A stretch of 34,100 nt of DNA, taken from the NCBI GenBank assembly GCA_947588755.1, contig CANPZB010000015.1, forward strand, positions 1 to 34,100, read 5' to 3'. The first letter of the stretch is position 1. Each line of letters starts with the position of its first letter. This DNA comes from Candidatus Gastranaerophilales bacterium. Lineage in GTDB: Bacteria; Cyanobacteriota; Vampirovibrionia; Gastranaerophilales; Gastranaerophilaceae. The position numbers and the translations under genes were made by a program. The notes under the pieces are model-generated. The model was not told where the DNA came from, made no database searches, and saw only the letters and a list, made by a program, of their open reading frames with translations. Of this stretch, positions 13,646-14,765 are shown piece after piece.

Positions 13646-14428
13646 ATGAAAAGGAATTTAAAAATCGCTTTTACTCTGGCAGAAGTTCTAATCACCCTCG
13701 GGATAATTGGTGTTGTTGCGGCAATGACTATGCCGTCATTAATTCAAAAACATCAGGAAAGAGAAACTGTCGTTAAACTAAAGAAATTTTACAGTACAAT
13801 TTCACAAAGTTATCTGTTTGCCGTGCAAGAATACGGAACACCCTCGGAATGGGGAATAACAGGCAGAGATGTAGGAAGTAAAGACAAGAATGAGGAGTCC
13901 TATGCCGCAACAAACGCAATTCTTGTACGTGACAGGCTTTTAAAAAATGTCAAAAAGACCCGTGTCTGTGATAATGCAAAAAACCAAAAAGCTTGCGGGT
14001 TTGCTAATGAAATTTATTTTTTAGACGGTCAAACAAAGGATTCTACAATATCAGGTTCTTCTGCCTTAACGGCTTCAGCAGCTCTGGCTGACGGTAGTTC
14101 TGTGATGTTTATTGCAAATGGTGCAGCCCTAAGTAACAGAGGTCCGGGTGCATTAGCTTATACTGCCGGAATTATATATTATGATATTAACGGGATTAAA
14201 CCGCCCAATACTTACGGAAAAGATTTCTTTTTCTTTTATTTGACTAACCAAAATATTATGCCTTGCGGTACGGAAGATGAAACACTTTATACTTTTAATA
14301 ATAATTGCGTTAACGTCCGCAACCAGGCAGGTGTGGGCTGTACAGCTTGGGTAATTTTTAACGAAAACATGGATTACCTGCATTGTGATGATTTGTCTTG
14401 GAACGGTAAACATAAGTGTTCTGACTAA
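13646..14428 (+). CDS. Type IV prepilin-like protein
   Basis: 260 residues with a normal short leader (MKRNLKIA) and prepilin cleavage before FTLAEVLITLG, with Glu at +5 and Ala instead of Gly at -1. The hydrophobic helix IIGVVAAMTMPSLIQ follows, then a globular domain with about seven cysteines, including a pair around CDNAKNQKAC and others in CGTEDETLYTFNNNC, VGCTAW and the final HKC. Such proteins assemble into type IV pili or pseudopili, or stay as minor pilins. SD AAAGGAGAATAGG. No other pilus gene is adjacent, as is common for scattered pilins in this lineage. The last eight codons recur twice downstream. Confidence 0.9.
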   Translation: MKRNLKIAFTLAEVLITLGIIGVVAAMTMPSLIQKHQERETVVKLKKFYSTISQSYLFAVQEYGTPSEWGITGRDVGSKDKNEESYAATNAILVRDRLLKNVKKTRVCDNAKNQKACGFANEIYFLDGQTKDSTISGSSALTASAALADGSSVMFIANGAALSNRGPGALAYTAGIIYYDINGIKPPNTYGKDFFFFYLTNQNIMPCGTEDETLYTFNNNCVNVRNQAGVGCTAWVIFNENMDYLHCDDLSWNGKHKCSD

Positions 14429-14539
14429 AACCGTGTTGCAGGGTAAAAAAGGGAAGGGAAACACAAATGTTCTGACTAAGCCTGTCCCAGCGGGCTACGT
14501 GCGTAGCATTGGGATGGTAAGCATAAGTGTTCAGACTAA
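14405..14539 (+). repeat. Three degenerate copies of the prepilin 3' end
   Basis: The last eight codons of the prepilin (GKHKCSD plus stop) occur at 14405-14428, 14456-14479 and 14516-14539. All three translate identically, and every difference between them is at a third codon position (GGT/GGG, AAA/AAG, CAT/CAC, AAG/AAA, TCT/TCA). Copy 3 is preceded by TGG GAT, copy 1 by TGG AAC. Homology continues for about 10 nt past the stop in copies 1 and 3. Copies 2 and 3 lie outside any visible gene. Confidence 0.85.
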
Positions 14540-14622
14540 AACGGTGTGAAAAGTGAGAAGTGAGAGGTAGAAAGGTTCGTTACGGGTGCTTTAGCACCCG
14601 ATAAGGTCCTCTCACTTCTCAC
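14494..14622. repeat. Palindromic intergenic elements between prepilin and metK
   Basis: GCTACG-TG-CGTAGC (14494-14507) is also present inside the left prepilin leader (188-200). GTGAGAAGTGAGAGG (14553-14567) and its exact complement (14608-14622) form a 15-bp stem around an inner hairpin GGGTGCT-TT-AGCACCC (14584-14599). Twenty bases of this element (14598-14617) also match positions 249-268 in the left prepilin leader, on the opposite strand. The rest of 14623-14700 shows no gene. Confidence 0.8.
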
Positions 14623-14709
14623 CTCTCACCCAAAGAGGTAACAACGAAAAAATTAATATTTTTTTATAAAATATTTGCTTTTCAATGTTTACTGTTGTAA
14701 ACTTTATAG

Positions 14710-14756
14710 TGCCGGGTCGGAATTAAAAACCTTACCGGCATGTATAGAAATTAAGG
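14710..14756 (+). promoter_or_regulatory. Possible pseudoknot occluding the metK ribosome-binding site
   Basis: Stem 1: TGCCGG (14710-14715) / CCGGCA (14735-14740), 19-nt loop. The 3' part of the loop, CCTTA (14730-14734), is complementary to TAAGG (14752-14756) of the metK SD region, so an H-type pseudoknot could hide the SD. Small SAM-sensing riboswitches of this topology exist in front of methionine genes, but I do not see a consensus I can name. A GTTTAC-tgtt-GTAAAC dyad lies at about 14687-14702. Confidence 0.35.
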
Positions 14757-14765
14757 AGAAAAAAA

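Follow-up and report, generated by a model that had tools for sequence, protein, structure and literature searches.

The window analysed here, a stretch of 34,100 nucleotides from a Candidatus Gastranaerophilales genome, carries a prepilin gene whose last codons are followed by two further copies of the same short coding block, separated by spacers of different types and flanked downstream by a palindromic region (Table 1). The predicted preprotein has a short, ordinary leader, MKRNLKIA, followed by FTLAEVLITLGIIG, which represents the N-terminal cleavage and methylation motif of type IV prepilins. Its match to the Pfam N_methyl model PF07963 (E=4e-4) lies just under the curated cut-off, and that to the GFxxxE prepilin domain model TIGR02532 is below cut-off. 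The module that forms the orphan copy within the palindromic flank recurs at prepilin starts, where it encodes the leader of many other prepilins.

Table 1. Features of the prepilin locus, with positions given in the window.
Feature	Position	Strand	Remarks
Prepilin gene	13646..14428	+	ORF ending in the class-1 tail ...DYLHCDDLSWNGKHKCSD-stop; PF07963 and GFxxxE matches below cut-off; 119 related hits in genome
Tail copy 1, GGTAAACATAAGTGTTCTGACTAA	14405..14428	+	Last 7 codons and stop of the prepilin ORF
Spacer type B, AACCGTGTTGCAGGGTAAAAAAGGGAA	14429..14455	+	Type B also at loci L009 and L021
Tail copy 2, GGGAAACACAAATGTTCTGACTAA	14456..14479	+	Outside any plausible gene
Spacer type A, 36 nt	14480..14515	+	Hairpin core GCTACGTGCGTAGC at 14494-14507 within TCCCA/TGGGA
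Tail copy 3, GGTAAGCATAAGTGTTCAGACTAA	14516..14539	+	Outside any plausible gene
Palindromic flank, GTGAAAAGTGAGAAGTGAGAGG / CCTCTCACTTCTCACCTCTCAC	14540..14641		Inverted repeat
Orphan copy of leader-encoding repeat	14585-14641	+ frame	Inside the palindromic flank; translation GALAPDKVLSLLTSHPKR-stop

A first-pass annotation of the window had reported that GKHKCSD-stop is encoded three times, with silent differences in five of the eight codons, and that copies 2 and 3 lie outside any gene. All of this was confirmed: 100 dinucleotide shuffles yielded no match to the block, the variable codons are codons 1, 2, 3, 4 and 6, with synonymous changes throughout, and neither downstream copy belongs to a plausible gene. 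The repeat exceeds the 24 nt of the tail itself, as copies 1 and 3 are 87% identical over 39 nt and their similarity continues beyond the stop codon, and the codon directly before the tails changes non-silently (Asn/Glu/Asp). Because the tail spacings differ, being 51 and 60 in the window and 50, 52 or 59 at other loci, the frame between copies is not conserved, which speaks against readthrough or alternative C-termini.

The host genome, a Gastranaerophilales-like draft of 1.83 Mb in 89 contigs that is 99.8% complete, contains 119 prepilin-like matches; many of the arrays lie near contig ends. The degenerate pattern for GKHKCSD-stop, hereafter class 1, gave 38 exact matches in this genome and none in the controls. 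Of these, 22 are first copies, each the end of a prepilin reading frame, with two located at contig edges. The other 16 lie downstream at intervals of 50-60 bp, and the arrays number 11, each with two or three copies. Every one of the 11 arrays with at least two exact copies follows a prepilin wherever the upstream gene is on the contig, and the block was nowhere seen in the host genome as a noncoding repeat unrelated to pilins. Three types of class-1 spacers were found: type A, which contains a hairpin and occurs at no fewer than nine loci, and the A-rich types B and C. Decayed class-1 copies are few and intergenic (C25:446, C26:15252, C44:6575).

Arrays of this kind are not restricted to one peptide. 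When the last 27 nt of 75 prepilins were compared with the 300 nt that follow each of them, at least 19 of 27 positions matched in 17 cases and at least 20 in 15, with the reversed query reaching 19 once and never 20. The downstream copies belong to three unrelated classes, GKHKCSD-stop, EIKDDYPW-stop and P[DK]DYPxKF-stop, each with its own spacers. The second class has units of 134-135 bp in up to three copies, with mostly synonymous variants, and the third has units of 61-63 bp. In most cases, a short, strong hairpin directly precedes the downstream tail copy.

Outside the host, in a comparison that covers one genome per species, nearly all named genomes sharing the GKHKCSD tail are Candidatus Gastranaerophilales, and 59 sampled genomes of the family have almost no class-1 tails. 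Arrays are present in two genomes besides the host. The first, Lapin-014 bin53, has about thirty class-1 tails, with 60-bp units as in the host and the core of spacer type A; one of its loci (L236) is a simple local tandem duplication in which gene and copy both have a nonsynonymous CGT. The second, G026, which represents a different genus, has an EIKDDYPW-stop array whose hairpin is nearly as in the host and whose tail codons follow G026's own choice. Because other Gastranaerophilales have single GKHKCSD tails without arrays, it is most likely that the tail has long belonged to the pilins and that the arrays arose later.

Relative to their consensus, the 16 class-1 downstream copies of the host differ by 31 synonymous and 0 nonsynonymous changes. 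As these copies had been picked by their coding pattern, degenerate copies and those of Lapin-014 were added to the test. The widened set showed 67 synonymous versus 13 nonsynonymous differences or, counting distinct variants, 11 versus 9, where about 18% synonymous would be expected (p=2e-4). The tail encoded by a downstream copy is in some cases that of another paralogue (PKDYPYKF behind PKDYPLKF, PDDYPFKF behind PDDYPIKF and EIKDDYPIKL behind EIKDDYPW), and 9 of the 16 class-1 copies carry a haplotype also found in a gene tail. The proposal that the copies evolved as coding sequence is thus supported. Of the two origins suggested for them in the first-pass annotation, 3' ends of lost paralogous prepilins agree with the coding origin, with the position behind prepilins and with longer prepilin 3' fossils that lack their gene at L189 (IIEYGGWKIKNDYPWERVMPEP) and L249. 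The alternative, a store of exchangeable C-terminal ends, holds in part: exchange is supported, as tails are unlinked from gene bodies, whereas a store that diversifies the C-terminus is unsupported in class 1, because all its tails give one peptide and the spacers are out of frame.

How the ends of these genes relate to their bodies is seen in paralogues with 75-98% identical bodies, which as a rule have neither leader nor 3' flank in common. The limits of homology are the FTLAE codons on the left and the stop codon on the right. Where the bodies of a pair are at least 80% identical, identity drops from about 0.9 just inside these limits to 27-30% farther than 30 nt upstream of the FTLAE codons and to 27-32% past the stop, and the leader type is common to 2 of 21 close pairs, with 3.0 expected by chance. 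In 14 of 14 independent close pairs, the mature region was less similar over its first 45 nt than over the following 60 nt (sign test p=1e-4); the 45-nt segment encodes the most conserved peptide, its amino acids are about as conserved in close pairs as those of the next stretch, and its nucleotide similarity in such pairs is about the same as in unrelated ones. At the other end, the last 24 nt of class-1 genes have similarities of 0.858, 0.865 and 0.857 in close, middle and far pairs, respectively, the close-pair value resting on 5 non-independent pairs. The stretch from 24 to 108 nt upstream tracks the body, with identity at 48-108 nt falling from 0.86 in close pairs to 0.50 in far ones. In L087 and L088, whose bodies are 95% identical, the tail haplotype switches right after TGGAACGG. 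In their synonymous haplotypes, the first ~45 nt and the last 24 nt show essentially no linkage to the body; both gene ends behave as if they belonged to the locus, and the middle as if it were mobile.

The tails are best explained, with a probability of about 0.6, by ectopic recombination (gene conversion) among the dispersed prepilins, with crossovers in their short shared coding ends; homologous recombination as the process is inferred from the mosaic pattern of the sequences. On this view, the tails sit at a boundary of recombination within a large gene family scattered over the genome, in which the body of a prepilin at one locus would be overwritten by that from another, through ectopic gene conversion or double crossover. 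On the left, the crossover would lie in the roughly 45 nt that encode the conserved FTLAEVLITLGIIG; on the right, it would lie in the conserved tail codons (W-x-GKHKCSD-stop in class 1) or immediately ahead of them, so that leader, first codons, tail and downstream flank would stay with each locus. An extra tail could arise when the right crossover uses another tail copy or, alternatively, when an incoming gene end is inserted with its 3' spacer upstream of the old resident's tail. The downstream copies would accordingly be displaced or hitchhiking 3' ends, fossils spread with exchanged gene ends, and continuing exchange would keep them similar to real gene tails. Against gene conversion counts the length of the shared tail, only about 24-36 bp, which is short for RecA-type recombination. 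It is rather doubtful that the repeated tails are a maintained recombination device, serving as landing pads that raise the rate of body swaps among about a hundred dispersed loci with different repeat-encoded leaders. If they were, an uncultured cyanobacterial lineage that lacks photosynthesis would diversify its pilins without recourse to silent cassettes. The data indicate that a very large surface-pilin repertoire is apparently reshuffled continually in abundant, mostly uncultured gut bacteria, and leader type, tail haplotype and fossil tails might serve as readable markers for measuring exchange directly in metagenomes.

The main rival to recombination among gene bodies, tentative but not negligible, assumes mobile or slipping 3' units. 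Composed of spacer, hairpin and tail, these units of 50-135 bp would insert at the 3' ends of prepilin genes, or be duplicated there, and restore the last codons, much like the elements that insert at tRNA 3' ends; bodies would be uninvolved, and slippage at the hairpins during replication would alter the copy number. That each class has one or a few fixed spacer-hairpin units would fit this view, as would the hairpin that immediately precedes most of the downstream copies (GCTACGTGCGTAGC, CCGGACTTCGTCCGG, CGGGCTTTGCCCG), the class-2 hairpin nearly unchanged in another genus, the near-identical 135-bp units in L159 and the local duplication in L236, and the constant position of the hairpins and their junction near a Trp codon in two classes is suggestive. 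Such units, however, leave unexplained the unlinked leaders and first codons, the copies with other paralogues' tails, and the fact that close paralogues as a rule differ in the flank beyond the tail, and three unrelated classes would each require their own element. The Y1, REP-associated transposase (PF01797) is absent from the genome, which also speaks against REP/RAYT elements. A diversity-generating retroelement was rejected because variation between copies is overwhelmingly synonymous rather than adenine-directed and nonsynonymous, and the sole RVT_1 match of the genome lies elsewhere, on contig C9 (L272), and not next to the repeats. This reverse-transcriptase gene adjoins one for a DnaB-like helicase and is perhaps of the retron or abortive-infection type. 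A mobile phage origin was likewise discarded, as only two viral-contig matches were obtained, both to one out-of-context sequence that is not a prepilin.

Plain tandem duplication and decay, which would make the copies leftovers of old tandem prepilin arrays or of lost genes and involve no ongoing exchange, appears improbable. The fossil ends at L189 and L249 and the three decayed copies listed above are in keeping with it, but dead copies would gain nonsynonymous changes, and none is found in 16 of about 21 downstream copies of the host. Moreover, class-1 copies within an array are no closer than copies from different arrays (2.86 versus 2.95 differences, permutation p=0.40), and simple recent tandem duplication is therefore rejected as the sole account for the host, though seen at L236. 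Conservation of the arrays as a functional noncoding 3' structure of RNA or DNA, such as a terminator, a regulatory RNA or a processing signal, is the least credible of these accounts. Hairpins do occur in most spacers, but the array RNA folds no better than shuffled sequences (z=-0.16), no Rfam family scores over threshold, the window has no terminator-like site, and the variation follows codon positions.

The leaders of 82 prepilin N-termini were read and fall into a handful of types. Their peptides are encoded by palindromic repeats (ALAPDKNFSLFTSHFSRK, KILKRVQDDK, GATHVARQHNKRR, NPRHV..) that are dispersed and shuffled among genes, and such repeat-encoded leaders occur at prepilin starts genome-wide (e.g., L097, L087, L089, L058, L043). 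In some of them the conserved motif is partly duplicated (FTLAE-GATHVARQHNKRRAA-FTLAEV), an arrangement that forms a 5' counterpart of the 3' arrays and is also found in Lapin-014 and another Gastranaerophilales MAG (L260, L262, L222). The idea of a prepilin cassette with the GCTACGTGCGTAGC palindrome at both ends was dropped, since the palindrome-bearing leader is not coupled to downstream spacer A in the host.

Among known systems, the closest in its working is pilE/pilS of Neisseria, where pilin gene conversion occurs and pilin loci carry at their 3' end a short conserved repeat (Sma/Cla, 66 bp) that has been proposed to aid recombination (PMC4023411). Tails and spacers likewise form a conserved repeat at the 3' ends of host pilin genes, but this repeat is the coding tail itself, class by class, and hence differs in kind from Sma/Cla. 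In Neisseria, silent cassettes donate segments to a single expressed gene, whereas in the host bodies would be exchanged among about a hundred genes that are dispersed, mostly full-length and provided with leaders; among the 82 N-termini, no arrangement of one expressed gene with 5'-truncated silent copies was found, only one clear internal truncated copy was noticed (L176), and a search of the window for a Neisseria-type G4 motif, with up to 3 mismatches allowed, gave no match. Gene conversion in the host would extend that process from a silent-cassette speciality of pathogens to genome-wide exchange among full-length genes. In the R64 pilV shufflon and in Moraxella bovis pilin inversion, a dedicated recombinase inverts C-terminal segments and thereby changes the C-terminus. 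The likeness lies in exchange at pilin 3' ends at short repeats; in contrast to those systems, the host copies are direct, in the same orientation, and silent in class 1. Rickettsia palindromic elements and PARCELs are dispersed repeats of palindromic form that are translated into protein (PMC2996958), as are the host leaders ALAPDK.., KILKRVQDD and GATHVARQHNK; unlike those elements, the host repeats supply prepilin leader peptides, and the 3' arrays consist of copied host coding sequence. With integron cassette arrays, the likeness is one of geometry only, a gene followed by a repeated 3' site. A termite-gut relative has been described only as having pilA and pilus genes (PMC5877343), and no published description of such tail arrays in the Gastranaerophilales lineage was found in the open-licence literature.

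Several minor features accompany the arrays. At three loci of Lapin-014 (L231, L209, L232), a dispersed repeat of roughly 100 bases (TCTTGGATTTGC...GCAAATCCGCTG) is nested in the loop of the spacer-A palindrome, and the 60-bp unit may be its short form. Another prepilin, with a double-FTLAE leader (FGFTLAEGATHVEQQHNKRIAA followed by FTLAEVLITLG), occupies the minus strand at positions 1-260 of the window and is cut by its left edge. In G026, of the same family and another genus, glmS adjoins metK directly upstream with no prepilin between them (L268), and the prepilin locus of the window is therefore not conserved. Upstream of metK, at 14711-14759, lies a compact conserved element (CCGGGTYGGAATTAAAAAMCTTACCGG..AAGGAG) that is present in 8 of 8 genomes aligned; it scores below threshold in Rfam and possibly represents an unlisted metK leader riboswitch.
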